Translations under genes and position numbers: made by a program
Shown here: positions 17,925-32,612 of the stretch, in pieces
Layout of the letters: each line of letters opens with the position of its first letter
Numbering within the stretch: position 1 is the stretch's first letter
Source: an uncultured Rubrobacteraceae bacterium
GTDB lineage: Bacteria; Actinomycetota; Rubrobacteria; Rubrobacterales; Rubrobacteraceae
Assembly (NCBI GenBank): GCA_902806055.1
Contig: CADCVD010000030.1
Coordinates: 1 to 42,899 of the forward strand
Direction: 5' to 3'
Length of the DNA: 42,899 bases
Notes under the pieces: model-generated
Database searches by the model: none
What the model saw: only the letters and a program-made list of their open reading frames with translations
Told to the model about the DNA's origin: nothing

Positions 17925-18838
17925 TGCGGCTCTACCTCTTCCATCCCTACCGCGATCTCTATCTCCCCGTCCCGCACCGCTACCGGGAGTACCGCGAGCT
18001 TGCCTTCTTCATCGTCTTGACGCTTTCCGGTCCGCACGTCGTAGCGGCACCCGTGCCAGGGGCAGACCAGCGTCGAGTCTTCCAACCTCCCCAGGTGCAG
18101 CGCGAGGGCACTCCCCGGCGGACAACCGTTGCGGTAGGCATAGACCTCCCCGTCCAGGCGCACCAGAAGCAGGGCCGTACCCTCCGGCCGCAAGGCCCGG
18201 ATCTCCCCCGGTTCGAGGTCTTCCAAATAACCTACAGAGACCCAACGCGGACGGCGCAGCGGCTTTCTCCCAAGCTGTATAGGCTTATCGAGCGCAAGTG
18301 GAGGCGGCTCCTCCGCCACAAGCTCCCTGAAGCCCGGGAACCCCTCTCGCAGGGCCTCCTCGACCACCCGCGTTAGCGTCGTCGCCGTACCCGGACAACC
18401 CTCACAAGATCCCGAGAGCCGCACCCGGACCCGCCCCTCCTCCACCCCCAGGACCTCCAGCTTCCCCCCGTGGGACTTAAAATAGGGATAGACGCTCTCC
18501 AGCGCTCGCTCGACCTGCGTCCGTTCGTCCGCCTCCGGGAGGTCGTACATCTCGAGGAGTGTGCATACTACCGGGTCCTGCGATATCCGCTCGACGAGCC
18601 CGGAACCACCGAGGTCGGTGACGAGCTTCAGCAGTCGCCCCAGGGCCTGCCGGTGCAGGACGTCTATTCCCTCCAGGAGGGCCAGGACCTCCTCGCGCGT
18701 CCGCTCGTCCTCTATCCCCTCCATCCGTTCCAGACCGGTCCCCAACCACTCCAGCAGGTGCTGAAACTCGGGCGGGAGGCCCGAGGAGGCCGGCTGCGCG
18801 ACCTGCACCACCGGGATCTCTTTTTTCGAAGGAGCCAT
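17921..18838 (-). CDS. NifU C-domain plus Rieske-like protein of the hydrogenase operon
   Basis: A 305-residue two-domain protein. An N-terminal helical part (about 20-100) is followed by a NifU-type domain (about 107-172) with its C-E-G-C cluster cysteines at 145 and 148. A Rieske-like domain (about 200-300) follows. The latter has C239 and the second pair C259/H262 (C-P-W-H-G), but Pro replaces the first-pair histidine at 241, so a standard Rieske 2Fe-2S cluster is doubtful. Proteins of this type accompany actinobacterial-type (group 1h-like) hydrogenases and may act in electron transfer or cluster delivery. ATG at 18838 follows AAAGGTAG and the upstream stop; an extension to 18895 would overlap the previous gene. 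Confidence 0.85.
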   Translation of the reverse strand: MAPSKKEIPVVQVAQPASSGLPPEFQHLLEWLGTGLERMEGIEDERTREEVLALLEGIDVLHRQALGRLLKLVTDLGGSGLVERISQDPVVCTLLEMYDLPEADERTQVERALESVYPYFKSHGGKLEVLGVEEGRVRVRLSGSCEGCPGTATTLTRVVEEALREGFPGFRELVAEEPPPLALDKPIQLGRKPLRRPRWVSVGYLEDLEPGEIRALRPEGTALLLVRLDGEVYAYRNGCPPGSALALHLGRLEDSTLVCPWHGCRYDVRTGKRQDDEEGKLAVLPVAVRDGEIEIAVGMEEVEPH

Positions 18839-18842
18839 ACAG

Positions 18843-19226
18843 CTACCTTTCAACAACCTCGGGGGCGCAGTGGAGGCAGGCGTCACGCGGCACACCCTTG
18901 CAGGTTGGGCACTCCGGGCCGCAATCCCCGTGGGCCGTGCTCTGGAGGCCGGAGAACTCGTCGGCGAAGCGCCGGCCGCCCTCCTTTATGCCAAGCTCGC
19001 TCAACCGGTAGCGCCCGCCGGACTCTTCGAGGTAGCCATCTTCCACCAGAACCGCGAGCTGCTCCCGCAGAAGATCCTCATCCACGACCAGGAAGCTCTG
19101 TAGCATCTGGCCGTCGGTCTCCTCCCCAAAGCCCTCGCCTCGCATCCAGTACATCGCCTGCAGGATGTCGTCCCGGCAGCGCAGGGCGCTCAGCGGATCG
19201 GAGGTCCGCTCACCGTGCTCGCTCAT
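18843..19226 (-). CDS. Winged-helix-like protein with C-terminal cysteine cluster
   Basis: A 127-residue protein of unknown function. Residues 15-85 look like a winged helix: D-I-L-Q-A-M-Y-W-M, a second helix ending E-Q-L-A-V-L-V-E-D-G-Y-L-E, then a wing-like Y-R-L-S-E-L-G-I-K-E-G-G. The last 30 residues hold six cysteines, one in the linker (D-C-G) and then C-P-T-C and C-L-H-C with His nearby, suggesting a zinc or Fe-S site. It lies between the second protease and the NifU/Rieske-like gene with a four-base overlap upstream. A metal-sensing regulator or an assembly factor would fit, but neither is shown. It is not HypA, which begins M-H-E and has a different layout. Confidence 0.75.
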   Translation of the reverse strand: MSEHGERTSDPLSALRCRDDILQAMYWMRGEGFGEETDGQMLQSFLVVDEDLLREQLAVLVEDGYLEESGGRYRLSELGIKEGGRRFADEFSGLQSTAHGDCGPECPTCKGVPRDACLHCAPEVVER

Positions 19227-19747
19227 CCTTTGCGCACCTCCTTCCGGCCGTTACCAGAGTGCGGGGCGCCGGAGCGGACCTCGCGTTGTATCCACTCTAC
19301 GGCCTGCTTCAGCCGCTCCTCGCCCAAAACGCTCAGCTCCGTGTTCCACTCCTTCTCTACAGGCTCTAGTTCCACCACCGAGGTATCAGGAGGGAGAGCA
19401 CCGAAGTGCTGGGCGACGATGAGGAGGTTCTCCAGGCTTATGACCCCGGCTCCCGCCTCCAGGATGCGCTCTTGCACCAGGTCGAGGTCCAGTGTGTCAG
19501 AGATCCAGCCGTAAGTGGTTAGGGTCCCCGGCTCCCGCCCACGCTCGACGGCCCCAGCGAGGATGGCGCGCTCGAACCTCTTCCCCGGGCTCTCCTCGAA
19601 CCAGTCGAGGATGGCGAGGGGCCCGTAGCCGAAGTCCTCTACCCGGACCTCCTCCGGCCAGGTCATGCTCTGCAGCCGCTCCACAAGCTTCGGGCCGAAG
19701 GAGAGGTCGCCGAGGTATTGGTAGCCGACGCCGGCGATCAGAAGCAC
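19223..19747 (-). CDS. Second hydrogenase maturation protease-like protein (divergent M52)
   Basis: A 174-residue protein starting at GTG 19747, which overlaps the large-subunit stop (TAGTG). The N-terminus L-L-I-A-G-V-G-Y-Q-Y-L-G-D-L-S-F-G-P is clearly M52-like, and D-F-G-Y-G-P-L-A-I-L-D-W matches the second conserved region. However, the usual G-N after G-V-G is G-Y, and I do not see the normal metal histidine. It may be an inactive homologue acting as a chaperone, or a divergent active protease. Direct linkage to the large subunit gene suggests it works on that subunit. The frame is open a long way upstream, but only as an antisense-type shadow of the large-subunit gene. Confidence 0.8.
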   Translation of the reverse strand: MLLIAGVGYQYLGDLSFGPKLVERLQSMTWPEEVRVEDFGYGPLAILDWFEESPGKRFERAILAGAVERGREPGTLTTYGWISDTLDLDLVQERILEAGAGVISLENLLIVAQHFGALPPDTSVVELEPVEKEWNTELSVLGEERLKQAVEWIQREVRSGAPHSGNGRKEVRKG

Positions 19748-21636
19748 TAGTGCTCGGCCCCGCAGGCGCAGGTGTTGACCTCGCGCGTGACGACGCCCTC
19801 GTCTGTGTGGACGTGCGTAGTGCACGGCATGCAGGGGTCGAACGAGCGGATCGTCCGCTGGATATCTATCCCCTGGAAGCTCCCAGAGGGGCTGTTCTCC
19901 AGGATCGGGGTGTTCAGCACGGCCGTCTCGTACATCCCCGGCGTTCCCCAAGGGTCGCGCGGCGAGGCGTTGATAGTCGAGGGGGTGACGATCTGGTAGT
20001 TCGTGACCACCCCGTCCTCGATCATCATGTGGTGGCTGACGAAGCCGCGCCCGGCTCCCCAGAACCCAACCCCGAGCTGCTGGCCCTTCTGAGGGATCTT
20101 GAACGGGGTGCTTACCGCGTCCCGCCCTTGCTTCAAGAGCTCCATTCCCTGTCGCCAGACGTTCAGACCCACCAGCGCCGTGTAGGCCAGGCAGTAGGCC
20201 CGGCCCCGGTTGCGCTCGAAGGCGTTCCACACCTCGGGGACGTGCCACTCCAGCTCAAGCTCCGGCTCCTTGCCCTCGGGCAGGAGCATCTTGAGGCTGT
20301 GTCCTGTGGCCTCAATGTAGGGGTTCTCCGGCAGCAGCCGGGCCACGGCCGTGTTCCACATCCGGGCCGTGGCTTCGGCGTCCATCGGCATGCGATCCCA
20401 CCTCGGAGAGGTGGACCAGGTGTACTTCTCTCGCCAGTTCGGGGCCTGCGGCCGCGGCTTGGTCTCCTTGTTCCAGGGATGGTAGGGGCTCAAGGGAGCG
20501 CCCAGGGGATCCGTCTCGAACTTGTGGCCGTTCCAGCCCTCGTAGAAGGAGTGATCGATAAACTCCTCCATGCCGAGGTTGATGTTCTGGAGCTTCGTGG
20601 TTACAAGCTCCCCATTCACTATGACCCCCGGCGTGGCCCATCGCTTCTCGCCCCACTCGTTGCAGTTCTCGTAGGTCGCGTCGTAGGCCTCCGGGTCATC
20701 CCAGATTCCATTGTCTACAAGGTTCGCCGCCGTGCGCCCCACCTCCTTATAGCGAGGGTCGGCGTCGTAGAAGAAGTCGACGATATCATCGTAGATCGCC
20801 GCGGCCTTCTTGGAGTAGTCGAAAAACTGCTGCAGCCTCAGGTACATCTCGTTCATGGTCGAGATCGTCACCGTCGCGCTCACGCCCCCCGGCGCCAGGG
20901 TCTGCGGGTGGGGGAACTTGCCGCCTATTAGGACGTACGCCTCTTTGGAGACGCGGGTCATGTGCAGCGCCTCCAGGTACAGAGAGCCGGAGAGCGCGTT
21001 CATGTCGCGCATGATCCCGCCGAGGGTGGCGTAACCGTGGATGTTGGCGTGCGGCGCCTCGGTCCTCTCCGCCTGTTCCCACAGCTCGGGGTTGGTCTTG
21101 CGGATAACGTTCTCCGAGAAGTCCGGCCCCGTCAGCATAAACAGGTGCAACGGCAAGTCGAGAAGAAACTCGAAGACCGAGAGCAAGTTACGCAGAACGA
21201 TCCCCATCGGCGGCGGCTTTACGCCGATGGCCATCTCCGTGGCCAGCGACGAGGTCCCGGAGTGCGTGTTGCCGCACACTCCGCAGGCCCGGCTGGTAAT
21301 GTAGATTGCGTCGCGCGGGTCGCGGCCCATCATGATGATCTCGTACCCGCGAAACAGGGTAGCAACCGAGCGGCTCTCCAGGACCTTCCGCTCCTCTAAA
21401 TCCACGACGCTGTGGAACGCCAGAGCCCCGGCCACCCTCGTTATGGGGTCGAAGTTCTTCTGCTCGATGTGCCCGTTGCGGGCGAGAAGGTCCTCGATCT
21501 GATCCCGCGTCAGGGTACGTACCGCGCTACCGTTCAGGTCCGGGCTCCGCTCCGTGCTGTACGGGTCACGGACGTCCTCTCTCAGGTAGGCTCGACCCCC
21601 TTCGTCGAACTCTACCGGCAGATTCTTAAAGCACAC
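19747..21636 (-). CDS. hhyL: [NiFe]-hydrogenase large subunit (group 1h-like, HhyL)
   Basis: The 629-residue catalytic subunit of an uptake hydrogenase. The nickel ligands are C118/C121 in the L1 motif C-G-V-C-G-N-T-H and C602/C605 in the L2 motif D-P-C-M-P-C-T-T-H. Residues after His608 form a 21-residue tail that a maturation protease should remove; the tail holds C-A-C-G. Start is GTG at 21636 behind an excellent AGGAGGAG site. It pairs with the small subunit at 23197-24546, but five small genes lie between them. Overall length and motifs recall the high-affinity actinobacterial H2-scavenging enzymes. Exact HydDB group (1h or a sister group such as 1l) needs classification. Confidence 0.95.
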   Translation of the reverse strand: MCFKNLPVEFDEGGRAYLREDVRDPYSTERSPDLNGSAVRTLTRDQIEDLLARNGHIEQKNFDPITRVAGALAFHSVVDLEERKVLESRSVATLFRGYEIIMMGRDPRDAIYITSRACGVCGNTHSGTSSLATEMAIGVKPPPMGIVLRNLLSVFEFLLDLPLHLFMLTGPDFSENVIRKTNPELWEQAERTEAPHANIHGYATLGGIMRDMNALSGSLYLEALHMTRVSKEAYVLIGGKFPHPQTLAPGGVSATVTISTMNEMYLRLQQFFDYSKKAAAIYDDIVDFFYDADPRYKEVGRTAANLVDNGIWDDPEAYDATYENCNEWGEKRWATPGVIVNGELVTTKLQNINLGMEEFIDHSFYEGWNGHKFETDPLGAPLSPYHPWNKETKPRPQAPNWREKYTWSTSPRWDRMPMDAEATARMWNTAVARLLPENPYIEATGHSLKMLLPEGKEPELELEWHVPEVWNAFERNRGRAYCLAYTALVGLNVWRQGMELLKQGRDAVSTPFKIPQKGQQLGVGFWGAGRGFVSHHMMIEDGVVTNYQIVTPSTINASPRDPWGTPGMYETAVLNTPILENSPSGSFQGIDIQRTIRSFDPCMPCTTHVHTDEGVVTREVNTCACGAEH

Positions 21637-21650
21637 GCTTTAGTCTCCTC

Positions 21651-21920
21651 CTAATCCCGTTCCAGTACCCGGCCCACACCCTCCAGGTGCCGGTCGGTCC
21701 CCCGCAGATCGTCCCTTAGCGCGCGCAGCGCCCCGTTTATGGTGCTCAGGTGCTCCGGCAGCGGCCTCGCGTGCCCCTGGATGGCCTGCAAGCCTCCGGC
21801 GAGCTTCGCCAGGTGCCGGTTCGCCCGCCACAGGTACAACGCTATCCCCACGAGGTAGACCACCAGCACCAGCACTACCAGCGCGACCGCGACAAGCGTC
21901 AGGATCGTCAGAATGCTCAC
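21651..21920 (-). CDS. Small single-span membrane protein, type B (B2), between hydrogenase subunits
   Basis: An 89-residue protein with one strongly hydrophobic N-terminal helix (about residues 5-30, ending Y-L-W-R) and a charged helical tail likely to form a coiled coil. It matches the type B protein at 22229-22543 in the Y-L-V segment, P-x-x-x-x-L-x, and the D-x-H-L-x-G run near the C-terminus. Function is unknown. Its start overlaps the preceding gene as ATGA, and it ends 14 bases before the large subunit start, so it is made with the hydrogenase. The short non-membrane part suits an anchor or assembly role. Confidence 0.8.
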   Translation of the reverse strand: MSILTILTLVAVALVVLVLVVYLVGIALYLWRANRHLAKLAGGLQAIQGHARPLPEHLSTINGALRALRDDLRGTDRHLEGVGRVLERD

Positions 21921-22225
21921 TCCGTTCTCCTCCCCGCCCGGGCCGCCAACGCTCCCTCGATGGTGCCGGTATGCTCCTCAATGGCCCGCGCCGTCTCGAG
22001 TATCCCCGTCGCCGTGGTGATGGTCCCCTCCAGGGCCACGATGTTCTCCGTGTTTCCGGCTATCCCGAGGCCCGCCTCGAGCGCGCGCGCCGAGTAGCGC
22101 TCTATCTGGCGCGCGGCCATGAGGGTCCGATGCAAGAGATAGACGGCCAGAGGCAGGACGACGACCACCGCGACGATGAGGGTGGCCCACCAGATCACGT
22201 ACACAGCCGTAGGTATCTCTACCAT
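21917..22225 (-). CDS. Small single-span membrane protein, type A (A3)
   Basis: A 102-residue protein with an N-terminal transmembrane helix (about 8-32, opening Y-V-I-W-W) followed by a helical domain with A-A-R-Q-I-E-R, G-I-A-G-N-T and G-I-L-E-T-A-R-A-I-E-E. These blocks recur in the two other type A proteins at 22584-22886 and 22883-23194, so the three are tandem paralogues. The short N-terminus before the helix and the basic residues right after it suggest an N-out, C-in topology, placing the coiled coil in the cytoplasm. No cysteines. It overlaps the type B2 gene by four bases. Confidence 0.8.
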   Translation of the reverse strand: MVEIPTAVYVIWWATLIVAVVVVLPLAVYLLHRTLMAARQIERYSARALEAGLGIAGNTENIVALEGTITTATGILETARAIEEHTGTIEGALAARAGRRTE

Positions 22226-22228
22226 TAC

Positions 22229-22543
22229 CTACCCCCTCTCCTGCTGGCCGACGGCCTCGATAGTCCCTGCCAGATGACCGTCTATGCTCCGCAACCCCTC
22301 AGCCGCTCTACCGAGGCTCTCGTTGAGCCGGGTCACCTCCGGACCCAAATGGTCCGTCTGCCGCTCTATGGCCCTGACGCCGAAGGCTATCTTGGAGAGG
22401 TAGCTCGACCGGTTGCTGTATCCTCTCGGCGTCTCTCCCCCGATGCTGTCGAGGACCTCTATTATCTTGACCAGGTAGAAGACCAGCGCCCCGAAGAGTG
22501 TCACCACCGCGAGCGCAGAGAGCGCCGTCAAGAGCACGAACAT
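22229..22543 (-). CDS. Small single-span membrane protein, type B (B1)
   Basis: A 104-residue protein with an N-terminal membrane helix (about 4-26) and a long amphipathic tail: Y-L-S-K-I-A-F-G-V-R-A-I, L-G-P-E-V-T-R-L-N-E-S-L, then G-L-R-S-I-D-G-H-L-A-G-T. The tail aligns by eye with the 89-residue type B2 protein. A loop of about 18 residues after the helix (G-G-E-T-P-R-G-Y-S-N) is an insertion relative to B2. The ribosome site AAGGGGG stands before the ATG. Upstream lies the only sizeable gap in this gene series (40 bases), which contains a perfect hairpin. Function unknown; no enzyme motif is visible. Confidence 0.8.
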   Translation of the reverse strand: MFVLLTALSALAVVTLFGALVFYLVKIIEVLDSIGGETPRGYSNRSSYLSKIAFGVRAIERQTDHLGPEVTRLNESLGRAAEGLRSIDGHLAGTIEAVGQQERG

Positions 22544-22558
22544 TTCACATACCCCCTT

Positions 22559-22574
22559 GTCCTCGACCGAGGAC
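22559..22574 (-). other. Perfect hairpin after the A2 UGA codon; candidate SECIS
   Basis: On the transcript, GUCCUC pairs with GAGGAC around a GGUC loop, a perfect 6-bp stem. The loop starts 16 nt after the UGA at 22586-22584, the same spacing as in the CooC-like gene, and begins with G, as bacterial SECIS loops do. It is not followed by a U-run (AAGGGGGUA follows), so a Rho-independent terminator is unlikely. Alternatives are an RNA stability element between genes or a structure affecting translation of B1, whose ribosome site begins right after the stem. Confidence 0.45.
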
Positions 22575-22583
22575 GCAGCGCGG

Positions 22584-22886
22584 TCACCCGGGGCAGTCCA
22601 GGGCGTGCTCCTCGATCCGGGCCGTGGCCCCGTCGATACCCGAGGCGCTCTCCAGGATGCCGCCTACCAGCCGGTTCGTCCGGTTCAGGAGAGGAATGTG
22701 GACCGTATTGTTAGCTATCCTCTGCCCCACGGTCCAAATGTCCGCGGCTGCTCCCTCTATCTGCCGGGCGGTGCGCACGATGAGGGTGAGCAGTACCGCA
22801 ACGACCACTATCACTACCACCCCGATACCCAAAGAGATCCACCAGACCGTGTAGGCCGCCCCTTCGCTGACCAGTGCAAGATTCAT
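22584..22886 (-). CDS. Small single-span membrane protein, type A (A2); possible selenoprotein extension
   Basis: A 100-residue type A protein: membrane helix at about 12-36 after Y-T-V-W-W, then T-A-R-Q-I-E, R-I-A-N-N-T-V, N-R-T-N-R-L-V-G-G-I-L-E and an ending D-C-P-G. The stop codon is UGA. If it were read as selenocysteine the protein would continue for 13 residues as U-P-R-C-V-L-G and so on, to a second UGA at 22547-22545, giving C-P-G-U-P-R-C. A perfect hairpin lies 15 nt downstream (see 22559-22574). With two better-supported selenoproteins in the window this deserves testing, but ending at 22584 remains the default reading. The start overlaps A1 by four bases. Confidence 0.75.
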   Translation of the reverse strand: MNLALVSEGAAYTVWWISLGIGVVVIVVVAVLLTLIVRTARQIEGAAADIWTVGQRIANNTVHIPLLNRTNRLVGGILESASGIDGATARIEEHALDCPG

Positions 22887-23194
22887 GACCCTCTAACCTC
22901 CTGCGCTCGGCGCCCTCTCTCCGGCAGAGTTCCGGCTATATGTCCCCCGCGTTCCTCGATGCTCTCCGCGGTCGCGAGGATCTCCTCGGCCGTCCGGTTG
23001 GTCTCGTCCAGCTCCCAGATGACTTTTGTGTCTTCCGCTATAGCCTCCGCCGCTTCGAGCGCTTTCCGGGCGTTGCCCAGGATGCGCCGGGCCACGAGCA
23101 GGATGGCTATGAGCAGGGCCGCGGCGAGGAGCACCACGACCCCCGCCACCGCGAGGCTCCAGTACCAGATCGTGTACAGTTCCGTGTCCGGCAT
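22883..23194 (-). CDS. Small single-span membrane protein, type A (A1)
   Basis: A 103-residue protein with membrane helix at about 8-34 after Y-T-I-W-Y-W, then L-V-A-R-R-I-L, A-I-A-E-D-T-K-V, E-T-N-R-T-A-E-E-I-L-A-T-A-E-S-I-E-E. It is the first of the three type A paralogues. ATG at 23194 is preceded by GAGAGAAGG and lies two bases after the small subunit stop; the longer frame reaching 23317 would lie inside the small subunit gene and is rejected. The run of small membrane proteins thus begins immediately after the small subunit, suggesting stoichiometric synthesis with it. Function unknown. Confidence 0.8.
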   Translation of the reverse strand: MPDTELYTIWYWSLAVAGVVVLLAAALLIAILLVARRILGNARKALEAAEAIAEDTKVIWELDETNRTAEEILATAESIEERGGHIAGTLPERGRRAQEVRGS

Positions 23195-23196
23195 GC

Positions 23197-24546
23197 TTAC
23201 CTTCTCTCCCAGGTCTCGTCCACGTCCTCGCGAGCCCGCCCCTCGCTCTCGGCCGCGCCGCTGACGTCGTGGGGAGCCTGCATGTTTCGGGCCCGCGGCG
23301 GCATGTCCGTGTGCCACCTGTCCGAGTCGTCCCGCCCGGGCTTCTTCTTATCGCCGGAGAACTGCAGCTTCTGGTAGAAGAACTTGACCGCCTTCTTCAG
23401 GGGGCCGGGGTTCTCCGGCTCGCCCCATCCAGAAGGCACCTCCCCGCCGTAGAGCTCGTCCCAGCGGACCTCCCGGTTGGCGTTGTGGTTGCTCAGGGCC
23501 CGGAGACGCCGGATCCCGAACCCCACGGTACGCGAGGCGGCGCTTGAGACGGCGGAGCCAGGCGGGGCCTCATAGAACGGGGCGAACTTGTCCGGGAACC
23601 CCGGCATGGTGCATCCGATACACGGCCCGCCGGATGCCATGCAGCCGCCCATGTGAGACTGGAACCCTCGGGAGACGATGTTGCAGTTCACCACCGGACC
23701 CCAGCAGCCGATCTCTACCAGGCACTCCTTGTCGCCGTACTCCTTGGCGAAGACCCCCTCCTCGTAGTAACCGGCCCGCGTGCAGCCGCGGTGAACGGTC
23801 TCGGAGAACAGCCAGGCTGGACGCCCGAGCTCATCGAACTCCGGCAGCGGCCCCATACCCTGCAAGAAGAGCAGAATCGCCGCTACCGTCTCCGTAAAGT
23901 TGTCCCCTATAGGGGGGCAACCGGGGACGTTGATGACCGGCAGCCCCAGAGCGCTGCGGTAGTTCTTACCGAGGAAGTCCATCGTGCTCATCGATCCGGT
24001 CGGGTTCCCCGCCGCCGCCGGGATGCCGCCCCAGGTAGCGCAGGTGCCGATCGCGATGACCGCCGCCGCCCCCGGCGCCATCTGCGCCAGCCGGTCGGCG
24101 GTCGGCATAGGCTTCCCCGCCTCCCCGGTCTCTCCCTCGATGGCAGACAGACCCATAGCCGAGAAGTAGCCGTCGGTCTCGGCGGCAATGCGCTCGTCCG
24201 CGATCGAGCCCTCGTAAATGCACACGTATGGGGCGTCCAACTCGCCTCTGGCCGCCAGCTCGTAAGCGTGGGTGAAGTCCTCTCCCACCTCCATCGAGAG
24301 CACCGGGTGGTGCAGGATGACCTTTGGGAGCCCGGGTATGATCCCGGTCATCAGGTCCTCTACCTTGGGATTCGTGGCCCCGGTCGCGGCGATGCTGCAC
24401 CCGTCGCAACTCATCCCCGCCAGCCAGAAGGCGTGCACCACCTTGACCGGCCCCTCCGGGGCCCTGTTCCTCTTGGCCTCCGGCTCAAGGAGCCGCCCCG
24501 ACGCATCATCCACGATGCCAGTAGTAGGCGGTGCGTCAATCGTCAT
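23197..24546 (-). CDS. hhyS: [NiFe]-hydrogenase small subunit (group 1h-like, HhyS)
   Basis: A 449-residue electron-transfer subunit with three Fe-S sites. Proximal cluster cysteines are C47, C50, C169 and C210 (S-C-D-G-C-S, G-T-C-A-T-W-G-G, V-P-G-C-P-P). The distal and medial region has H252, C255, C281, C288, C302, C309 and C312. No twin-arginine signal is present, so the enzyme is expected to stay in the cytoplasm, as group 1h enzymes do. Unusual points are a hydrophilic N-terminal extension of about 30 residues, a C-terminal tail of roughly 60 charged residues, and Cys50 where I recall Asp in the described actinobacterial-type enzyme. The ATG follows the CooC-like gene by two bases. Confidence 0.95.
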   Translation of the reverse strand: MTIDAPPTTGIVDDASGRLLEPEAKRNRAPEGPVKVVHAFWLAGMSCDGCSIAATGATNPKVEDLMTGIIPGLPKVILHHPVLSMEVGEDFTHAYELAARGELDAPYVCIYEGSIADERIAAETDGYFSAMGLSAIEGETGEAGKPMPTADRLAQMAPGAAAVIAIGTCATWGGIPAAAGNPTGSMSTMDFLGKNYRSALGLPVINVPGCPPIGDNFTETVAAILLFLQGMGPLPEFDELGRPAWLFSETVHRGCTRAGYYEEGVFAKEYGDKECLVEIGCWGPVVNCNIVSRGFQSHMGGCMASGGPCIGCTMPGFPDKFAPFYEAPPGSAVSSAASRTVGFGIRRLRALSNHNANREVRWDELYGGEVPSGWGEPENPGPLKKAVKFFYQKLQFSGDKKKPGRDDSDRWHTDMPPRARNMQAPHDVSGAAESEGRAREDVDETWERR

Positions 24547-24548
24547 GT

Positions 24549-25370
24549 CTAGGCTCCTCTCCCGCTCCCGGAAGAACCGTTGCTCTCGGCCCCCGCCATC
24601 TCCCGCTCTAACAGATCGGCGATGTTCTCGACAGAGGCTACCGCCGGCGCCATGGGAGCGTAGTCCATCAACGCCTGAGCCTCCCTATCGGCTTCCTGAA
24701 TCGCCTCGTCCCACCAAACGATTCCGCCAACCTCTATCCCGTGATCCGCGCAGTAGGAGCGGATGATCTCTTCGTCTCTCTGGCTCCGCACCTTGTTGGC
24801 GACCGCCCAGACGTGCTCGATCCCGAGCTCCTGCGCGAGCGGCGCTATCCGCCCCACGGTCTCGAGCGACCGGAAGTAGGGCTCGGTCACGATCAGCATC
24901 CCTTCGACGTGCCGGACGGTGGCCCGGCTCATGTGCTCTATCGAGGCCTCCATGTCCGTGATGGTTACTTCTTCTCCGGCGTTACCCGTAGCCAGCTCAC
25001 CGAGCAGGCCGCGCACCCGAGCGTGCGCGCCGCACAGTCACCCGGCCCCGGCGTGGTCCACCCCCGTCATCACCATCAGGTTCACCCCGTCCGGCCCTTC
25101 GGTTGCGTACTCCGCCGTGATCTCTTCCACCGGGCGGGTCAAAACCAGAGATCGGCGTTCGCCTTCCTCCTTGACCTCCATGATCTCCTTGGGCACCCGG
25201 ACCAGCCTCTCCAACTGCTCCCGGCCCATCCCAAGCGCGACCCCGAGGTTCGGGTTGGGGTCCCCGTCTACCGCTGTCACCCGATGCCCCCGCCGCGCCA
25301 GAACCCGCGCCAACGTCGCCGAAATGGTCGTCTTACCCGAACCGCCCTTACCCGCAACAGCTATCTTCAT
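24549..25370 (-). CDS. CooC-like nickel-insertion ATPase containing selenocysteine (UGA at 25040-25038)
   Basis: Reading the in-frame UGA as selenocysteine gives one 273-residue P-loop ATPase of the CooC/MinD type. It has a deviant Walker A G-K-G-G-S-G-K-T-T at 7-15, V-D-G-D-P-N at 34-39, and the T-D-M-E-A-S-I-E-H-M-S-R Walker B region near 133. Sec111-Leu-Cys113 falls where Carboxydothermus CooC1 has its metal-binding, dimer-forming Cys112-x-Cys114. Both flanks continue the family sequence, so this is not two genes or a pseudogene. CooC proteins load nickel into CO dehydrogenase; here the partner is probably the hydrogenase, since no hypA or hypB is present. Start ATG has an AGGAG site; the next gene, hhyS, begins two bases after the stop. 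Confidence 0.85.
25010..25029 (-). other. Probable bacterial SECIS element in the CooC-like gene
   Basis: On the mRNA, CGCGCAC (25029-25023) pairs perfectly with GUGCGCG (25016-25010) around the six-base loop GCUCGG. The loop begins 16 nt after the UGA at 25040-25038 and its first base is G. Both points match the general rule for bacterial SECIS elements, which lie inside the coding region directly 3' of the UGA and bind SelB. An extra G-C closure below the stem is possible with one bulge. The assignment is by eye; no folding energy was computed. Confidence 0.75.
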
Positions 25371-25416: not shown

Positions 25417-25950
25417 TTAGCAGCACCCGCACCGACACTTCTCACTCTCCCCAACATCCTGCAAGAACCGGTCGGCCCGGACCACCGGCAGACCGTTCGC
25501 CGTTACCCCCTCGACTGCGGCGGTGACGCACCCGCAGAACTCCCCTTCCCCACGCTCCGCGCAGCGGCATGTACCCTGTTCCCCGGCCGTCGCGACGCGC
25601 TCTCGGTACTCCAGGAGACTCTCCCGGAAATCCCGCAGCTCCTCCAGCCTCCGCTCGGTCTCCTCTAGCTTTTGTTCCAAAAGTACGTCCAGATGTCGGA
25701 GGACCCCGCTCGGCATCCCCTCCTCGGCGATCTCCACCAGGTTCCGGATCTGATCTAGCGCCAACCCCATTAGCTTCGCCCGCCGGATGAACTCTATCTG
25801 CTCCAGCTCGCGCCAGCCGTAGATCCGGTACCCGGCATCCGTCCTTCCCGCAGGCGAGATCAAACCTATGTCCTCGTAGTAGCGTAAGGTCTTGGCCGGC
25901 ACTCCCACCAACCTCGCCACCTCACCTATCTTTAGAGCTGTTTCACCCAT
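25417..25950 (-). CDS. MerR-family metal-responsive regulator, head of hydrogenase operon
   Basis: A 177-residue MerR-family activator. The N-terminal helix-turn-helix is typical (K-I-G-E-V-A-R-L-V-G-V-P-A-K-T-L-R-Y-Y-E), followed by I-R-R-A-K-L-M-G-L, a long dimerisation helix, and a C-terminal part with nine cysteines including C-R-C-A, C-G-C and a final C-R-C-G-C-C. Such endings suggest binding of a thiophilic or transition metal; nickel would fit the operon but is not shown. ATG at 25950 has AAAGGTG six bases upstream; a GTG at 25959 lies within that site and is less likely. The gene sits behind its own MerR-type promoter and 46 bases ahead of the CooC-like gene. Confidence 0.88.
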   Translation of the reverse strand: MGETALKIGEVARLVGVPAKTLRYYEDIGLISPAGRTDAGYRIYGWRELEQIEFIRRAKLMGLALDQIRNLVEIAEEGMPSGVLRHLDVLLEQKLEETERRLEELRDFRESLLEYRERVATAGEQGTCRCAERGEGEFCGCVTAAVEGVTANGLPVVRADRFLQDVGESEKCRCGCC

Positions 25951-25980
25951 AAAGATCACCTTTCCCGTAACACACGGTTC

Positions 25981-26011: not shown

Positions 26012-26228
26012 GATAGACGTCAAAAGTTCAGGAAATCTAGCCTCCTCTTACCTTAACGATTCGCTCGTTTCACTCTCCGTCGAGAGATACTGTCGAGCCG
26101 GAGGAGGGCCATAAGCGATGCTCCTCTCGCGGGGGCGCGTTCTCCTTACGTCGAGCAATGTTCGTGGCCGTTTGGTGAGAAAGGGCATGCAAAGTAGAAT
26201 CTCTCCAGAGAGCGCGGAAGGAGAAAGT

Positions 26229-26876
26229 ATGGCAGAGCAGAGAGGCGGAACCGGCATAGATTCTACGACCATAAAAGATATCGTGCGGTTTCACGGCCAC
26301 ATGTGTCCGGGGCTTGCTATGGGCATCCGAGCCGCCGAGGTGGCTCTAAGCGAGGTAGGACCGCATTCCTCTGACGAAGAGGTCGTCACGATCACAGAGA
26401 CGGACATGTGCGGGGTGGATGCGATCCAGTACCTCACCGGCTGCACTTTCGGCAAGGGTAACCTCATCCACTTAGACTACGGCAAGAACGCCTACACCTT
26501 CATCCGGCGCTCGGACAGCAAGGCGGTCCGGGTATCCACTCGCCCCGGAGCATTCGACCGGAGCCCGGAACACAACGAACTCTCCGCCAAAGTGCGCAAC
26601 GACAGCGCCACCGACGAGGAGCGGAGCCGCTACAAGGAGCTGCGCGCGAACCGCACCGAGGCGATCCTGCAAGCTTCCGTAGGCGAGCTTTACGCCGTGG
26701 AGAAGCTAGAGAGCGCGGATATACCGCCGATAGCCCGTATCCACGACTCTGTTGCCTGCGCCGGGTGCGGCGAGCTCACCATGGAGACTCGCGTAAAGCA
26801 GCTGGAGGGTAGGAGGCTCTGTCCAGCCTGTTTCGAGGCCGCTCTCTCCCGCCAAGGCAGCGTCGAGAGCAACTGA
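26229..26876 (+). CDS. FmdE-family protein with C-terminal zinc ribbon
   Basis: A 215-residue protein of the FmdE family (named after a formylmethanofuran dehydrogenase subunit, though bacterial members have other, mostly unknown roles). The family signature I-V-R-F-H-G-H-M-C-P-G-L-A-M-G is at about 18-32; T-D-M-C-G-V-D-A-I-Q and G-C-T-F-G-K-G-N follow. The C-terminus has C-A-G-C and C-P-A-C, forming a probable zinc ribbon. ATG at 26229 is chosen for its strong AAGGAG site; the frame extends to 26118 without one. It is divergent from merR and first of the plus-strand block. Metal handling is a guess from its cysteine and histidine content and position. Confidence 0.85.
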   Translation: MAEQRGGTGIDSTTIKDIVRFHGHMCPGLAMGIRAAEVALSEVGPHSSDEEVVTITETDMCGVDAIQYLTGCTFGKGNLIHLDYGKNAYTFIRRSDSKAVRVSTRPGAFDRSPEHNELSAKVRNDSATDEERSRYKELRANRTEAILQASVGELYAVEKLESADIPPIARIHDSVACAGCGELTMETRVKQLEGRRLCPACFEAALSRQGSVESN

Positions 26877-26912
26877 GCTAGAGTTCAGCTTGGATCTCCG
26901 GGAATTCTCAAG

Positions 26913-27857
26913 TTGAGCCGCGAAGACGACCTTTCGTTTCTAGCCCCGCCCGGTGAGGTAGCGGACTGGCGGATGGTCGCCACCTTCGATGCCGCAGCCG
27001 AGGCAGGACTCTTCGAGCAGCTTCCAGCCACTCCCGCGCAAGTAGCTAGCCGCCTCGGCCTCGACGAACGAGCCGTACGTATATTGCTCGGCGCCCTCTC
27101 CGTCTGGGGAGTAGTCGAGAAGCATGCCGGCAGGTACTCGATGCATCCGGACTGGTCCTGCGACCAAGGAGAGGCGGCGACGTTGCGCCACCACGCTCGC
27201 GTCCTCCGGACGTGGAGCACGCAACTCGGTGACCGTCTGCGGGGAACCCCTCCCTCTCCCTCCAAAATTCCCCCGGAGCGCCGCCGGCTCTGGCTCGAAG
27301 CGCTGGCCGCGAGCGCGCGCGAGCAGGCTCCGCTCGTCGTCGAGACCTGCCTCAAGCGTTTTCCGAACGTCCGCCGCGTCCTGGACCTCGGAGGAGGTCA
27401 CGGCGAACACGCCCGCGCCTTCGCCCGGCGGGGCCTCAGCGTGATGCTCCAGGATACAGAGCCGACCGTCGAGTTACTCAAAGAGAGCGAACTACCTAGC
27501 TCTGGAGTGGAACTGTTCGCGGGAGATTTCTTCGAGGTTCTGCCCAATGCGCAGTTCGACCTAGTCCTCTGCGCCGGCGTCACGCATACCTACGACGGCG
27601 AGCGTAACCGCCTACTCTACCGCCGAATCGCCTCGATCCTCGCCTCCGGTGGGGGCCTGGCTATCATCACCTTCCTGCCCGAGCAGGACCCGAGGGCTTC
27701 GATCTTCGCGGTACAGATGTTGGCGGTATCCGCGGGCGGCGACGCACACAAAGAGATTAAATACCGCGAGTGGCTAGAAGCCGAGGGCTACCGGGCGCCC
27801 GAGATTCGGCATCTCAGTAACACCGCCAACTTCCTCTTGCTCACCTCCCGCCGTTGA
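26913..27857 (+). CDS. SAM-dependent methyltransferase, O-methyltransferase-like
   Basis: A 314-residue protein with an N-terminal winged-helix dimerisation domain (about 15-85: A-A-E-A-G-L-F-E-Q-L, L-G-L-D-E-R-A-V-R-I-L-L) and a Rossmann methyltransferase domain with motif I V-L-D-L-G-G-G-H-G-E-H at about 156-166 and a G-D-F-F-E-V-L motif further on. This layout is that of COMT-like small-molecule methyltransferases. Start is TTG at 26913, 36 bases after fmdE and in the same frame. The substrate is unknown, and the link to hydrogenase or transporter is positional only. Confidence 0.82.
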   Translation: MSREDDLSFLAPPGEVADWRMVATFDAAAEAGLFEQLPATPAQVASRLGLDERAVRILLGALSVWGVVEKHAGRYSMHPDWSCDQGEAATLRHHARVLRTWSTQLGDRLRGTPPSPSKIPPERRRLWLEALAASAREQAPLVVETCLKRFPNVRRVLDLGGGHGEHARAFARRGLSVMLQDTEPTVELLKESELPSSGVELFAGDFFEVLPNAQFDLVLCAGVTHTYDGERNRLLYRRIASILASGGGLAIITFLPEQDPRASIFAVQMLAVSAGGDAHKEIKYREWLEAEGYRAPEIRHLSNTANFLLLTSRR

Positions 27858-27935
27858 CTCCTTTTTCAGCACGTCTCCCTGACCTAATCCTCAAACCAGC
27901 GGAATTTTTGCCACGAACCACACGCTTCCAGTAAG

Positions 27936-29591
27936 ATGGAAGGTGGAGGAGAGAATAGAAAGGGTTTAGGAGTTGTGGTTATCCATAAAGAGTCGAGACG
28001 GTCTTTGCGTCCCTTGCTGGTAGGTGTTTTGGGGCTTCTGATGCTGATCGTGTTGAGCCCGGCCGCGGGCGGCGCGCAGGAGGAATCCGAGCAACTGGAG
28101 AAGCTTACCATCGCGACCGAAGCCGACAAGGGCAATCTAACCCCTTACAGCTTCAGGCCCCCTCCGGGCCTTCACGCCGAGCTCACGAGCCTCGTCCACG
28201 ACACGCTCTTCTTGGACCCCTATACCGAAGAGCCAATCCCGTGGCTCGCGACGGAGGCCTCTGCGAGCTCGGACGCTAAAACCTGGACCGTGACGCTTCG
28301 CGATGACGTCACCTGGCACGATGGCGAGGAGTTCACGGCCGATGACGTCGCCTTTACCTACGAATACTACAAGGAGGGTCCCTCCAACCGCTACTCGCAT
28401 CACGCACATGAGTATCCGGTTATAGAGTCTGTTGAGACATTAGACGCGAGCACGGTGGAGTTCACCTGCGCCGATCCCTGTCCCACCCTGCAGCTCATTA
28501 CCCTGGCCGACCTTCCGATCCTGCCGGAGCATATCTGGGAGAACGTCGAGGACCCGCAGACGTACACGGAGTTGCCGGTGGGCACCGGACCGTACAAGCT
28601 CGTAGAGTACGTAGAGGATCAATCCTACCGTCTCGAGGCCAACGAGGATTACTTCCTCGGTCCACCGGCGGTACAGGAGATAGAGATGCCGATCGTCACG
28701 GATCCTTCGAGCATGTTCCTCGCCCTGGAGACCGGGCAGGTAGATACCGTAACACGCAACATCCCTCCCGAGATAGAGGAGCGTCTCGCCGAGACCGAAG
28801 ACATCGAGATGGTCGAAGGAGATCGGTTTTCGTCCGTCTTTCTCAGGTTCAACTCTGAAACTCCACCGCTCGACCAGCAAGAATTTCGAAGGGCTTTTGA
28901 TATGGCTATAGACCGGCAGGCCCTCGTGGACACGGTCTTGTTGGGTAGCGGGACACCGGGAAGTCCCTCGTTCCTGCACCCGGATTCCAGATGGTACGAG
29001 TCCCAAGAGGCAAGCTTCGATCCGGAGCAGGCCAACACGATTCTAGACGAAGCCGGAATTACGGATTCCGACGAGGACGGGGTTCGGGAGATCGACGGGG
29101 AGCCGGTCAACCTCTCGGTCCTCGTCCCGGCCAACGACCCTCAGCAGATTCGCACGGCCGAGCTGGTCGCTCAGCAGCTCGAAGAGGTAGGCGTTGGTCT
29201 AGAGGTTGAGTCACTAGACCCGGGTACGCTGAGCCAGAGGCAGAACTCGCAGGACTTCGAACTCTCCACCTTCCAGGGCGTGCCTCATCTGCTCGGGGAC
29301 CCCACCCAACTGATGGAGTCGCTAACATCTTTGCTGTTCTACGCTAACCCCGATTACGAAGAGCTAAAATCCGAGTGGTCTGAGGCTACCACTATCGAGG
29401 AGCAGAGTGAGAAGCTCTCCGAGATCCAAACACTCTTCTCCGAAGACCCGCCGGCTTTCACGCTCTACTACCCCGACACAAACTACGCCTATAACACGAG
29501 CGTCTACGACGGTTGGATACCGGTTAAAGGACACGGCATTCACCATAAGTGGTCACTTATACCGCAAGCAGCAGAGTTGTTGGATGAATAA
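27936..29591 (+). CDS. ABC transporter substrate-binding protein, family 5 (Opp/Dpp/Nik type)
   Basis: A 551-residue secreted binding protein. A Sec signal peptide spans about residues 18-48 (basic R-R-S-L-R, hydrophobic core, then S-P-A-A-G-G-A before the mature part); there is no lipobox cysteine, so membrane attachment is not by a standard lipoprotein anchor. The family 5 signatures W-T-V-T-L-R-D-D-V-T-W-H-D-G, A-D-D-V-A-F-T-Y and G-T-G-P-Y-K-L are present. The ligand could be a peptide, nickel or another small molecule; sequence alone does not tell. Start is uncertain: ATG at 27936 has no clear ribosome site, and GTG at 27975 is an alternative. It begins a five-gene importer operon. Confidence 0.88.
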   Translation: MEGGGENRKGLGVVVIHKESRRSLRPLLVGVLGLLMLIVLSPAAGGAQEESEQLEKLTIATEADKGNLTPYSFRPPPGLHAELTSLVHDTLFLDPYTEEPIPWLATEASASSDAKTWTVTLRDDVTWHDGEEFTADDVAFTYEYYKEGPSNRYSHHAHEYPVIESVETLDASTVEFTCADPCPTLQLITLADLPILPEHIWENVEDPQTYTELPVGTGPYKLVEYVEDQSYRLEANEDYFLGPPAVQEIEMPIVTDPSSMFLALETGQVDTVTRNIPPEIEERLAETEDIEMVEGDRFSSVFLRFNSETPPLDQQEFRRAFDMAIDRQALVDTVLLGSGTPGSPSFLHPDSRWYESQEASFDPEQANTILDEAGITDSDEDGVREIDGEPVNLSVLVPANDPQQIRTAELVAQQLEEVGVGLEVESLDPGTLSQRQNSQDFELSTFQGVPHLLGDPTQLMESLTSLLFYANPDYEELKSEWSEATTIEEQSEKLSEIQTLFSEDPPAFTLYYPDTNYAYNTSVYDGWIPVKGHGIHHKWSLIPQAAELLDE

Positions 29592-29605
29592 GAGGAGCAC
29601 GTAGA

Positions 29606-29743
29606 ATACCCTCGCGGAGAACACTGGCAACGTTAGGGCATCCCTGTACGGTCTCGGGGGCGATCGGGTCTATGGCCCTGATCGCGCTCGTCGGGCTTGT
29701 GAGCGGACCGATGCCAGAAGAAGACGGCGAGGACCGGATATAG
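29606..29743 (+). CDS. Possible very small membrane protein ahead of the permease gene
   Basis: An open frame ending at TAG 29741-29743, immediately before the permease TTG. It encodes a hydrophobic stretch (A-I-G-S-M-A-L-I-A-L-V-G-L-V-S-G) with one cysteine before it and an acidic end (P-E-E-D-G-E-D-R-I). No ATG, GTG or TTG start precedes the hydrophobic part. Rare starts would be ATA at 29606, eight bases after AGAGGAG, or CTG at 29624. The tight junction with the permease suggests translational coupling, but the gene is unproven and could be a decayed remnant. Confidence 0.3.
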   Translation: MPSRRTLATLGHPCTVSGAIGSMALIALVGLVSGPMPEEDGEDRI

Positions 29744-30748
29744 TTGCCGCTCCCTTCCGAAGCCGGATGGAGGCGCATCGTCGGACGGATAGCCCAGTAC
29801 GCTCTCGTCGTCCTGATCGCGCTATCGCTCAACTTCGCCATACCCAGGCTGGCACCAGGAAGTCCGATCGACTATCTGGTCCCGAGCGAACAAGTCACCA
29901 CCGTCACCCCCGAGCAACGAGAGCGGATACTGGCCCAGTTCGGGCTTGAGAGGCCGCTCGCCGAGCAGTATTGGAGTTATATAGCCGGGATCTTGCAGGG
30001 CGACCTTGGCGTCTCGGCCCAGCAAGGCCGACCCGTAGTAGATATGCTCCTGGAGAGGCTGCCCTGGACCCTCATATTGGTGGGTGGGGCGATCACGCTC
30101 TCCCTCATAGTCGGGGCCGGCGCCGGGTTTCTCGCGGCCGCTCGGCGGGGAGGCCGGATGGAGGTTGGAGGACTCGCCTTCTTCATGTTCCTCGACTCGA
30201 TGCCTCCGTTCTGGATCGGGATGCTCCTCCTCGTACTGTTCTCCGGGTACCTAAAGATTCTGCCGGTCTTCGGAGCCCTCCCGCTAACGGGGGCGGCAGG
30301 CGGTTTCGGCCTCACCCTTGAGGTCGCCGAGCGTCTTGTGCTCCCCCTGCTGACCCTGACCCTGGTGAGGGCTGGCTGGCTCTTCCTGGTGGCGAGATCC
30401 TCGCTCGCGGGCGAGCTCTCCGAGGACTACATACTCATGGCCGAGGCAAAAGGCCTCTCCCGGCGCAAGGTGGTGCTTGGGCATGGGGTGAGAAACGCCC
30501 TCCTCCCCCTCGTGACCGCCGTGGCGGTAGAGGCGGGGACAGTGGTAGGAGGAGCGACGGTGGTCGAGACCGTCTTCTCGTACCCTGGCTTGGGGCGTCT
30601 GGTCTATGAGAGCGTCCTGAGCCGTGACTACCCCGTGCTGCAGGGGGCGTTCCTGCTCCTGGCGGTAGGGGTTATCGCGGCCAACCTCCTCGCCGACCTG
30701 CTCTACCCGATAATAGACCCCCGGACGCGGACGGAGGGTGCCCGATGA
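29744..30748 (+). CDS. ABC transporter permease (DppB/NikB-like)
   Basis: A 334-residue inner-membrane permease with about six hydrophobic helices. The periplasmic loop after the first helix contains L-A-P-G-S-P and the L-G-L-E-R-P-like F-G-L-E-R-P-L-A-E-Q-Y segment common to DppB-type subunits. The ATPase-contact EAA loop is A-E-A-K-G-L-S-R-R-K-V-V-L-G-H-G. It starts with TTG right after the preceding small frame and overlaps the next permease as ATGA. It forms the channel with the protein at 30745-31629. Confidence 0.9.
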   Translation: MPLPSEAGWRRIVGRIAQYALVVLIALSLNFAIPRLAPGSPIDYLVPSEQVTTVTPEQRERILAQFGLERPLAEQYWSYIAGILQGDLGVSAQQGRPVVDMLLERLPWTLILVGGAITLSLIVGAGAGFLAAARRGGRMEVGGLAFFMFLDSMPPFWIGMLLLVLFSGYLKILPVFGALPLTGAAGGFGLTLEVAERLVLPLLTLTLVRAGWLFLVARSSLAGELSEDYILMAEAKGLSRRKVVLGHGVRNALLPLVTAVAVEAGTVVGGATVVETVFSYPGLGRLVYESVLSRDYPVLQGAFLLLAVGVIAANLLADLLYPIIDPRTRTEGAR

Positions 30749-31629
30749 GCGGGGCTCAGTTGGGGCGCATAGGAGCGGCGACCCTGGCGATTTTCGTGAT
30801 CGCCGCGATCTTTGCCCCGGTGCTCGCTCCCTACGACCCTACGGTACGCACCGCCGCGCCCTTCGCGGCCCCATCACTGGCTCACCCGTTAGGCGCTAAC
30901 GACGTAGGCCAGGACATCTTGAGCGAGCTCCTCTTTGCCAGCAGGATTTCGCTCACGGTCGGCATCGCCACCGCCTGCCTGGCGACGGTTCTGGGAACGA
31001 CTATCGGGGTTGTCAGCGGATACCTCAGAGGTCCCGTAGATAGCGTGCTGATGCGAGGGGTGGACGTGATCCTCTCTCTACCTTTCTTGCCGCTCATGAT
31101 CGTGCTGGCGGCGTTTCTCGGGCAGAACACCACCAACCTGATACTGGTTATAGGTTTGCTGATCTGGGCTCGCCCGGCCCGTCTGCTACGTTCTCAGGTG
31201 CTTTCGGTGCGAGAGAGCGGGCACGTACAGGCAGCTCGGACGATGGGCGCCACACACGGTTACATAATGGTGCGTCATATACTGCCCAGGATCACCCCTT
31301 TGATCGCGGCTCAGTTCGTCCGTGCCGCTAACGTCTCTATAATGCTCGAGGCCTCTCTGGCCTTTCTCGGTCTCAGCGACCCGTTCCAGAAGAGTTGGGG
31401 CGCCATTCTGTTTTACGCCAACGCCCGCTCGGCCTTTCTCACCGACGCGTGGCTCTGGTGGGTGCTGCCGCCGGGGCTGTGCATAGCAGCGGTAGTAGTC
31501 AGCTTCGCTTTTCTGGGCTACGCAATTGAGGAGCGCGTAGATCCCCGCCTACGCTCCAACCTGCCGGCGAGCGAGACCCTGAAAGATGCCGAGACGCCGA
31601 CGCCCGTCGGAGGAGGCGCTCTCCGGTGA
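30745..31629 (+). CDS. ABC transporter permease (DppC/NikC-like)
   Basis: A 294-residue second permease. It has the N-terminal helix followed by A-H-P-L-G-A-N-D-V-G-Q-D, the DppC-type motif (H-P-L-G-T-D-x-x-G-R-D), five further helices, and an EAA loop A-A-R-T-M-G-A-T-H-G-Y-I-M-V-R-H. The C-terminus ends R-V-D-P-R-L-R as usual. Four-base overlaps with both neighbours show tight coupling. It completes the heterodimeric channel. Confidence 0.9.
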   Translation: MSGAQLGRIGAATLAIFVIAAIFAPVLAPYDPTVRTAAPFAAPSLAHPLGANDVGQDILSELLFASRISLTVGIATACLATVLGTTIGVVSGYLRGPVDSVLMRGVDVILSLPFLPLMIVLAAFLGQNTTNLILVIGLLIWARPARLLRSQVLSVRESGHVQAARTMGATHGYIMVRHILPRITPLIAAQFVRAANVSIMLEASLAFLGLSDPFQKSWGAILFYANARSAFLTDAWLWWVLPPGLCIAAVVVSFAFLGYAIEERVDPRLRSNLPASETLKDAETPTPVGGGALR

Positions 31630-32612
31630 GCGCGCTCCTCGAGGTTCGCGGTTTGAGTACCGTATACGATGCTCCAGAGGGCCCGATCCGGGCCGTAGAC
31701 GGCGTGGATCTTACCGTAGGTCGTGGAGAGATCCTTGGCGTAGTCGGCGAGTCCGGCTCCGGCAAGACCACGCTGGTGATGTCCTTAATGCGCCTCGTAA
31801 AGCCTCCCGGCAAGATACTCAAGGGCGGCGAGATGCTGCTAGACGGCGAAGATCTCTTCGGTCTCCCCCGCTCGAAGATGCCGGCGCGGCGGGGCCGAGA
31901 CCTCGCCCTGATACCCCAGAGCGCCATGCACGCCCTGAACCCGGTGATCCCGGTCGACAAGCAGGTCGCAGAAGCGATCACCGTGCATAGAAAAGTTAAC
32001 AGCAAGGACGCCCTACTCGCCGCCCGCGAGAGGTTGGTGGAGGTCGGCATCCCGGCCGAACGCCACTCCGCCTACCCGCACGAGCTAAGCGGAGGAATGC
32101 GGCAACGGTGCGTCATAGCGATGGCCGTCGCCAACGAGCCTAAGCTGGTCATCGCCGACGAGCCGGTCTCCGGGCTTGACGTCGTCGTGCAGGCTCGCAT
32201 CCTGCGTCTCATCGCCGAGCTAAAAGAGAGCCGAGGCCTCTCCATGATCCTGGTCTCCCACGACCTCTCGACGGTGGCCAGAGTCTGCGACCGCATCGCT
32301 GTTATGTACGCCGGAAGGATCGTCGAGACGGGTGAGGCCCGCACCCTCTTCAAGAGCCCCCTGCATCCGTATACCAGGGCTCTGGTAGCAGCGATCCCCC
32401 AGGTGCAAGGTCCCAAACAAGCCCTGAGAGCCATCCCGGGCGATCCTCCGGACCTGAGCCAACTGCCGCCCGGCTGCGATTTCCAGCCGCGCTGCCCTTC
32501 GGCCTTCGCCGACTGCGAGACAGTGGACCCGTCGCTGGAGGAGGTGGAGCCCGGCAGGAAGGCAGCCTGTCTGCTCTATCATAAGAATGAACGAAGACAA
32601 CTTGACGAGTAG
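31626..32612 (+). CDS. ABC transporter ATP-binding protein (DppD/NikD-like)
   Basis: A 328-residue ATPase. Walker A is G-E-S-G-S-G-K-T-T near residues 41-49, the signature motif is L-S-G-G-M-R-Q-R, and Walker B is L-V-I-A-D-E-P. The C-terminal extension P-R-C-P-S-A-F-A-D-C with further C-x-x-x-x-x cysteines is the segment found in peptide-type ATPases, where it can carry a 4Fe-4S cluster. The start GTG at 31626 overlaps the permease stop by four bases, and the end overlaps the next ATPase gene by 26. Confidence 0.92.
   Translation: MSALLEVRGLSTVYDAPEGPIRAVDGVDLTVGRGEILGVVGESGSGKTTLVMSLMRLVKPPGKILKGGEMLLDGEDLFGLPRSKMPARRGRDLALIPQSAMHALNPVIPVDKQVAEAITVHRKVNSKDALLAARERLVEVGIPAERHSAYPHELSGGMRQRCVIAMAVANEPKLVIADEPVSGLDVVVQARILRLIAELKESRGLSMILVSHDLSTVARVCDRIAVMYAGRIVETGEARTLFKSPLHPYTRALVAAIPQVQGPKQALRAIPGDPPDLSQLPPGCDFQPRCPSAFADCETVDPSLEEVEPGRKAACLLYHKNERRQLDE

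Follow-up and report, generated by a model that had tools for sequence, protein, structure and literature searches.

Two adjacent open reading frames in the same frame, separated by a single TGA, lie within a [NiFe]-hydrogenase operon of an uncultured Rubrobacteraceae bacterium. The locus raises the question of whether they encode one CooC-type nickel ATPase with a selenocysteine in its metal-binding motif, as the original prediction had it, and what such a protein would do for a hydrogenase. The whole stretch of DNA analysed (42,899 nucleotides) is called here the window, and the features located in it are collected in Table 1.

A CooC-like ATPase with a U-x-C motif

The gene is a single open frame of 273 codons whose sole interruption is the TGA at codon 111. 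The two reading frames had been taken for one CooC homologue with UGA in place of the first cysteine of the CxC motif, and both points were borne out by the closest solved relative, CooC1 (PDB 3kje, E = 1.6e-30 in the sequence search). The 273-residue protein aligns straight through the TGA, and in its AGU111-L-C113 motif Sec111 and Cys113 match Cys112 and Cys114 of the CYC motif of CooC1. The metal motif is thus present as UxC, with Cys113 invariant in the group to which the protein belongs. The Walker A sequence GKGGSGKTT (residues 7–15) is of the deviant type (GKGGxGKT) and accompanies a MinD-like fold. Family matches place the protein among the MinD/NifH-class P-loop ATPases; those in NCBIfam are generic (MinD/ParA/NifH-type), and the HypB family TIGR00073 is not among the 25 families listed. 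The AlphaFold2 model is confident (mean pLDDT 89, pTM 0.89) and a Foldseek comparison of this predicted model with the PDB again returned 3kje at the top (E = 1.4e-16), with NifH among the fold relatives.

The hydrogenase-linked sequences form one clade of the tree (support 92) that excludes CooC1. Ni-CODH (CooS) is the classical client of CooC, and it was found in 0 of the 33 genomes searched. The description as a CooC-type ATPase therefore stands for the fold, the Walker A motif and the metal motif, but orthology with CooC is ruled out by the sister position of the clade and the lack of Ni-CODH in these genomes, and for the same reasons the protein is named CooC-like and not CooC. Since the stop codon splits such genes, ordinary annotation truncates them and the family is probably under-recognised.

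Table 1. Positions of the features located in the window (strand in brackets)
Feature	Positions	Strand	Basis or remark
HypE	12311..13864	(-)	true start probably inside ORF
HypD	13384..14511	(-)	
Second HypC-like protein	14495..14818	(-)	
HypC	14815..15093	(-)	
HypF	15097..17547	(-)	
HycI-type maturation protease	17421..17924	(-)	
NifU-domain/Rieske protein	17921..18895	(-)	
Companion protein	18843..19226	(-)	His/Cys metal-type motif HGDCGPECPTC
Hydrogenase maturation protease	19223..19750	(-)	TIGR00072
[NiFe]-hydrogenase large subunit	19747..21636	(-)	Cys ligands, no TGA
Three to four small proteins, probably membrane-anchored	21640..23317	(-)	between the hydrogenase subunits
[NiFe]-hydrogenase small subunit (HhyS-like)	23197..24546	(-)	directly downstream of the CooC-like gene
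CooC-like ATPase, predicted Sec-containing, 273 aa, U111-L-C113	24549..25370	(-)	ORF reading, homology, predicted structure
SECIS candidate hairpin 2, GGCCUGCUC GGU GAGCUGGC	24991..25010	(-)	GGU loop ~37 nt after UGA; codon constraint
SECIS candidate hairpin 1, CGCGCAC GCTCGG GTGCGCG	approx. 25008..25031	(-)	loop starts 16 nt after UGA; codon constraint
In-frame TGA, read as selenocysteine (Sec111)	25038..25040	(-)	frame and relatives
MerR-family regulator, Cys-rich C-terminus	25417..25959	(-)	directly upstream of the CooC-like gene
Divergent block: FmdE-like protein, methyltransferase, NikA/OppA-type binding protein, two permeases, two ABC ATPases	26118..33582	(+)	
tRNA-Sec	40261..40350	(-)	found in window
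SelB	40379..42397	(-)	found in window
SelA	42210..42899	(-)	found in window; cut by window edge

The hydrogenase operon and its missing nickel genes

The hydrogenase context originally proposed is confirmed by the two structural subunits, HypCDEF and the proteases, all in the same operon. The large subunit carries cysteine ligands and its gene contains no TGA, so the selenium would reside on the chaperone and not on the enzyme. Two kinds of gene are duplicated, there being two adjacent HypC-like genes (14495–15093) and two maturation proteases, and the tandem small membrane-type proteins between the small and large subunits recur in other loci. The MerR regulator may sense nickel or another metal, and the ABC transporter of the divergent block is probably a nickel uptake system. 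Similar neighbourhoods, with HhyS/L, HypCDEF, a protease and often a nickel transporter, occur in Acidobacteriota, Chloroflexota and many Actinomycetota. The plasmids searched gave no hydrogenase-linked relative of the ATPase; the single match was in Acetoanaerobium.

In the genome of the window HypA was not found and no HypB scored over the cut-off, TIGR00073 giving no match to the CooC-like locus. HypA and HypB queries match none of the CooC-like loci, yet they match the canonical ones. Of the ten Rubrobacteraceae genomes with the gene, three have HypA, against 11 of the 12 that lack the gene but bear a hydrogenase (p = 0.006). Over the 33 genomes searched, HypB exceeded the cut-off in five and HypA in eight, and these genes lie on contigs other than those of the CooC-like loci. 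Many of the genomes are drafts, which makes the absence of HypA and HypB a soft one; its strongest cases are G077 (99%, 3 contigs), G112 (97%) and G082 (95%, 6 contigs). Three f44 genomes have HypA with no HypB over the cut-off, a combination recorded for G141, G206 and G270. HypB-like GTPases below the cut-off occur and could substitute for HypB.

The small-subunit tree separates two clades with 100/100 support, canonical group 1h and CooC-linked. The former takes in Cupriavidus, Streptomyces, Methylocystis and the Rubrobacteraceae without the gene; HypA and HypB are present in the Streptomyces and Methylocystis operons and likewise at the canonical 1h loci of Rubrobacteraceae. Loci L010, L012, L128 and others in this tree carry the CooC-like gene. 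A diverged second small subunit (L198, genome G142) clusters with the Acidobacteriota members of the CooC-linked clade. Group 1l hydrogenases are reported to be associated with Actinobacteriota in desert soil (PMC7677003), and from taxonomy and tree position our guess is that the client hydrogenase belongs to this group. Given the absence of HypA and HypB at these loci, the split between the small-subunit clades and the presence of both genes in the canonical operons, we infer that the ATPase replaces them for the CooC-linked class of hydrogenase.

Paralogues and a companion protein

In other Actinomycetota these hydrogenase clusters contain additional paralogues, some with U/C-x-C or U/C-x-G motifs and others, the B group, with CxCC, CxUC or UxUC. 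B-group genes usually adjoin a motif-less ATPase. The UxUC form, two TGA codons with one sense codon between them, was seen in the B-group loci L019, L075, L118, L119, L125 (near 9180–8488) and L159, with CxUC in others, and is possibly a double-selenocysteine metal site. A hairpin, CCGAGC-AGUU-GCUCGG, is found in 13 of 13 TGA members of the B group; it is nearly invariant, its covariation in these 13 is no better than in shuffles, and it is only consistent with Sec insertion. The U-x-G paralogues L130 (near 7353–8084) and L132 (near 1762–2478) keep the Sec and have lost the second metal ligand.

Beside many of the A-type genes stands a small HGECxxDCWC protein, often with a His-rich C-terminal tail, whose version in the window is the companion protein of Table 1. 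Most relatives of the companion have the HGECxxDCWC form of the motif. Neither this uncharacterised protein nor its relatives gave a Pfam match over the cut-off. Tails rich in His are characteristic of nickel chaperones, and the companion is for that reason a candidate substitute for HypA and a putative nickel-binding partner of the ATPase.

Nickel, iron or redox chemistry

Hydrogenase operons without hypA and hypB point to nickel loading as the task of the ATPase, and we consider it likely that the Sec-containing UxC protein loads nickel into the hydrogenase in place of HypB and HypA. The metal could otherwise be iron, held between the two subunits in an Fe-S cluster as in NifH, or used in assembling the Fe-S or Fe(CN)2CO centres of the hydrogenase. 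Such a role would fit the likeness of the fold to NifH, the NifU-Rieske protein of the operon and the CxCC/UxUC paralogues with their motif-less partners, which suggest more than one job. It is unlikely, however, in an operon where HypCDEF for the iron group are all present and the nickel genes are the missing ones, which a nickel-type transporter adjoins, and for a protein whose nearest solved relative binds Ni (PMC6006190).

A redox role for Sec111, in protection from oxidation or its sensing in aerobic desert soil, with metal binding secondary or lost, is quite improbable. The invariance of Cys113 in the protein's own group and the alignment of the motif with the metal site of CooC1 both argue against it, even though redox proteins are frequent among known selenoproteins (PMC13188914) and the U-x-G paralogues lack the second ligand.

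Selenocysteine at codon 111

Nickel loading by a U-x-C protein supposes that UGA111 is a selenocysteine codon, which is nearly certain from the comparison of relatives, none of the tests made having spoken against it. The column of the UGA is occupied by TGA in 33 distinct relatives and by Cys in 115 rows of the alignment, with no third residue among the motif-bearing rows; other residues are confined to a motif-less paralogue clade. Relatives outside the hydrogenase-linked clade have an invariant Cys here, and within the clade the codon is TGA or TGC/TGT. TGA is present in 10 of the 10 Rubrobacteraceae genomes holding the gene and also in Pyrinomonadaceae/Acidobacteriota (L010–L012), Thermomicrobiaceae (L014) and several other Actinomycetota, the gene family with TGA members spanning three phyla. 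At least 10 changes between U and C are required on the tree of relatives, and such repeated changes are what Sec/Cys exchange commonly produces. The alternation that the original prediction proposed to look for is thus found in the motif-bearing relatives, always as Cys or U. In Rubrobacteraceae the frame is open on both sides of the TGA and the changes there are mostly synonymous. A divergent, long-branch CooC-like gene (L131, near 7921–7208) has TGA in a G-U-G-G-L context, its placement being unsure. L028, in which there is a stop, was left out of one alignment.

The machinery said to lie in the window is there: selA (incomplete at the edge), selB and tRNA-Sec were all located. SelB exceeded the cut-off in 23 of the 33 genomes searched. 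TGA genomes without SelB over the cut-off are G299, G302 and G303 (75–82% complete) and G310, G313 and G315 (of unknown completeness); G201 has SelB as a short strong piece below the cut-off, and G270 (93% complete), where none exceeded it, carries TGA only in a B paralogue.

RNA elements downstream of the TGA

Bacterial SECIS elements are described by a stem of 4–16 bp, a loop of 3–9 nt with G in its first two positions, a distance of 16–37 nt from the UGA and an energy of at most -7.5 kcal/mol (PMC13188914), and the predicted 7-bp hairpin 1 (-12.9 kcal/mol), its loop 16 nt past the UGA, falls within these ranges. The hairpin is present as proposed, but alone it is uninformative: the single sequence, folded over 60 nt, does no better than shuffles in this GC-rich DNA (z = -0.45), and single-sequence folding was discarded as evidence for Sec, so that the selenocysteine reading relies on comparison. 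Over the relatives, 27 of 33 TGA rows lie below the bSECIS energy threshold versus 16 of 115 Cys rows, some of these 16 carrying TGA two codons further on.

The search for conservation of the hairpin gave a clearer answer in the relatives, where a SECIS-like helix covaries. In the 16 non-Rubrobacter TGA sequences, a helix of five pairs encloses a five-base loop that starts 21 nt after the UGA, with 98.8% of the cells paired, 14 double-changed cells and three pairs changed on both sides. Its covariation score (0.487) was equalled by 0 of 500 shuffles, and sliding the partner abolishes the covariation. The same columns in 20 Cys-type members of the clade are 43% paired, with no excess over shuffles. 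Compensatory covariation in the TGA members and none in the Cys members indicates that the helix is maintained only with TGA. Its loops in non-Rubrobacteraceae, GGUCC and GGUUC, agree with the published G[G/U] rule (PMC13188914).

The element of Rubrobacteraceae differs from this helix and comprises two constrained hairpins, of which the one originally noted is the first. Stem codons 115–116 and 119–120 of hairpin 1 are codon-invariant, and loop codons 117–118 vary synonymously. Codons 119–126, which span the 3' arm of hairpin 1 together with hairpin 2, are the longest codon-invariant stretch of the gene when nine Rubrobacteraceae sequences are compared (shuffling gives about 0.001).

Were UGA111 a plain stop or a site of regulatory recoding, the gene would give mostly a 110-residue product and a separate one of 155 residues, for which a GTG start at 25016 lies shortly downstream. 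That would leave the ATPase in two pieces, and it is highly improbable beside the Sec/Cys alternation at a predicted metal ligand, a hairpin that covaries only with TGA, the conserved frame on both sides and the Sec genes nearby. Selenocysteine codons commonly allow a degree of termination, which may occur here as well. A sequencing error or pseudogene, for which nothing counted, has a negligible probability given an intact frame and a TGA shared by ten Rubrobacteraceae assemblies and by other phyla.

Proposed mechanism

In the proposed scheme, SelB and tRNA-Sec would decode UGA111 as selenocysteine in the cell, directed by the RNA hairpin just downstream, to give a MinD/SIMIBI-fold ATPase of the hydrogenase-linked clade sister to CooC. 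In CooC1 each dimer binds one Ni, with Cys112 and Cys114 of both subunits forming the site (PMC6006190). As in CooC1, two subunits of the ATPase would probably join at U-x-C, and a single nickel ion may be bound there by four ligands, the selenolate of Sec111 and the thiolate of Cys113 of both subunits. On binding or hydrolysis of ATP the metal would be released to the large subunit, at a stage when HypCDEF have completed the Fe(CN)2CO group and the protease has yet to act. The ATPase would thereby stand in for HypB and, with the HGECxxDCWC/His-rich companion, for HypA.

A wider reading, to which we give somewhat better than even chances, is that nickel reaches a large class of [NiFe]-hydrogenases from soils and deserts independently of HypA and HypB, by way of a set of CooC-like ATPases and the HGECxxDCWC His-rich protein, with Sec as a nickel ligand. 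The set would jointly comprise A (U/C-x-C), A-like (U/C-x-G), B (U/C-x-U/C-C, with up to two Sec) and C, the motif-less partner of B.

Selenocysteine is a nickel ligand inside [NiFeSe]-hydrogenases; to our knowledge no delivery protein has been described that handles nickel with it. If the proposal is true, some oxidisers of the atmospheric-hydrogen type need selenium to mature a selenium-free hydrogenase, and they provide a testable exception to the general requirement of [NiFe]-hydrogenases for HypA and HypB.

Comparison with known systems

The statement that no Sec form of CooC had been described agrees with a 2026 inventory of 119 prokaryotic selenoprotein families, which has no entry for a CooC/MinD-type ATPase; deep-Sep (PMC12013277) and two other surveys do not mention CooC. 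Titles and abstracts of papers naming both CooC and selenocysteine make no link between them, in a search directed mainly at literature outside subscription. The nearest known idea is the CobW-related selenoprotein with UxxC (NF041053; Table 1 of PMC13188914), also a predicted Sec relative of an NTPase metal-chaperone family; unlike the window protein, CobW belongs to the G3E GTPases and has the motif UxxC. The CxCC/UxUC paralogues resemble the CxCC metal motif of COG0523 proteins (PMC9164220), apparently by convergence.

CooC1 of Carboxydothermus hydrogenoformans (PDB 3kje–3kji), which serves ATP-dependent nickel insertion into Ni-CODH, is alike in fold, deviant Walker A, position of the CxC motif and length, with 32% identity in the structural match. 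The window protein differs from it in having Sec for the first Cys, in its separate clade and in its place in a hydrogenase operon of genomes without Ni-CODH. With HypB/HypA it has in common the presumed task, the operon context and its nature as an NTPase whose dimerisation is governed by a metal site, but it is a MinD/CooC-class ATPase with Sec and not a G3E GTPase, and HypA and HypB are absent from its loci. The canonical group 1h operons (Cupriavidus pHG1, Streptomyces and Methylocystis) have in common with the present one the large and small subunits, HypCDEF and a protease, the large subunit being 40–44% identical; they differ in their separate small-subunit clade and in having no CooC-like gene, the Streptomyces and Methylocystis loci carrying HypA and HypB instead.
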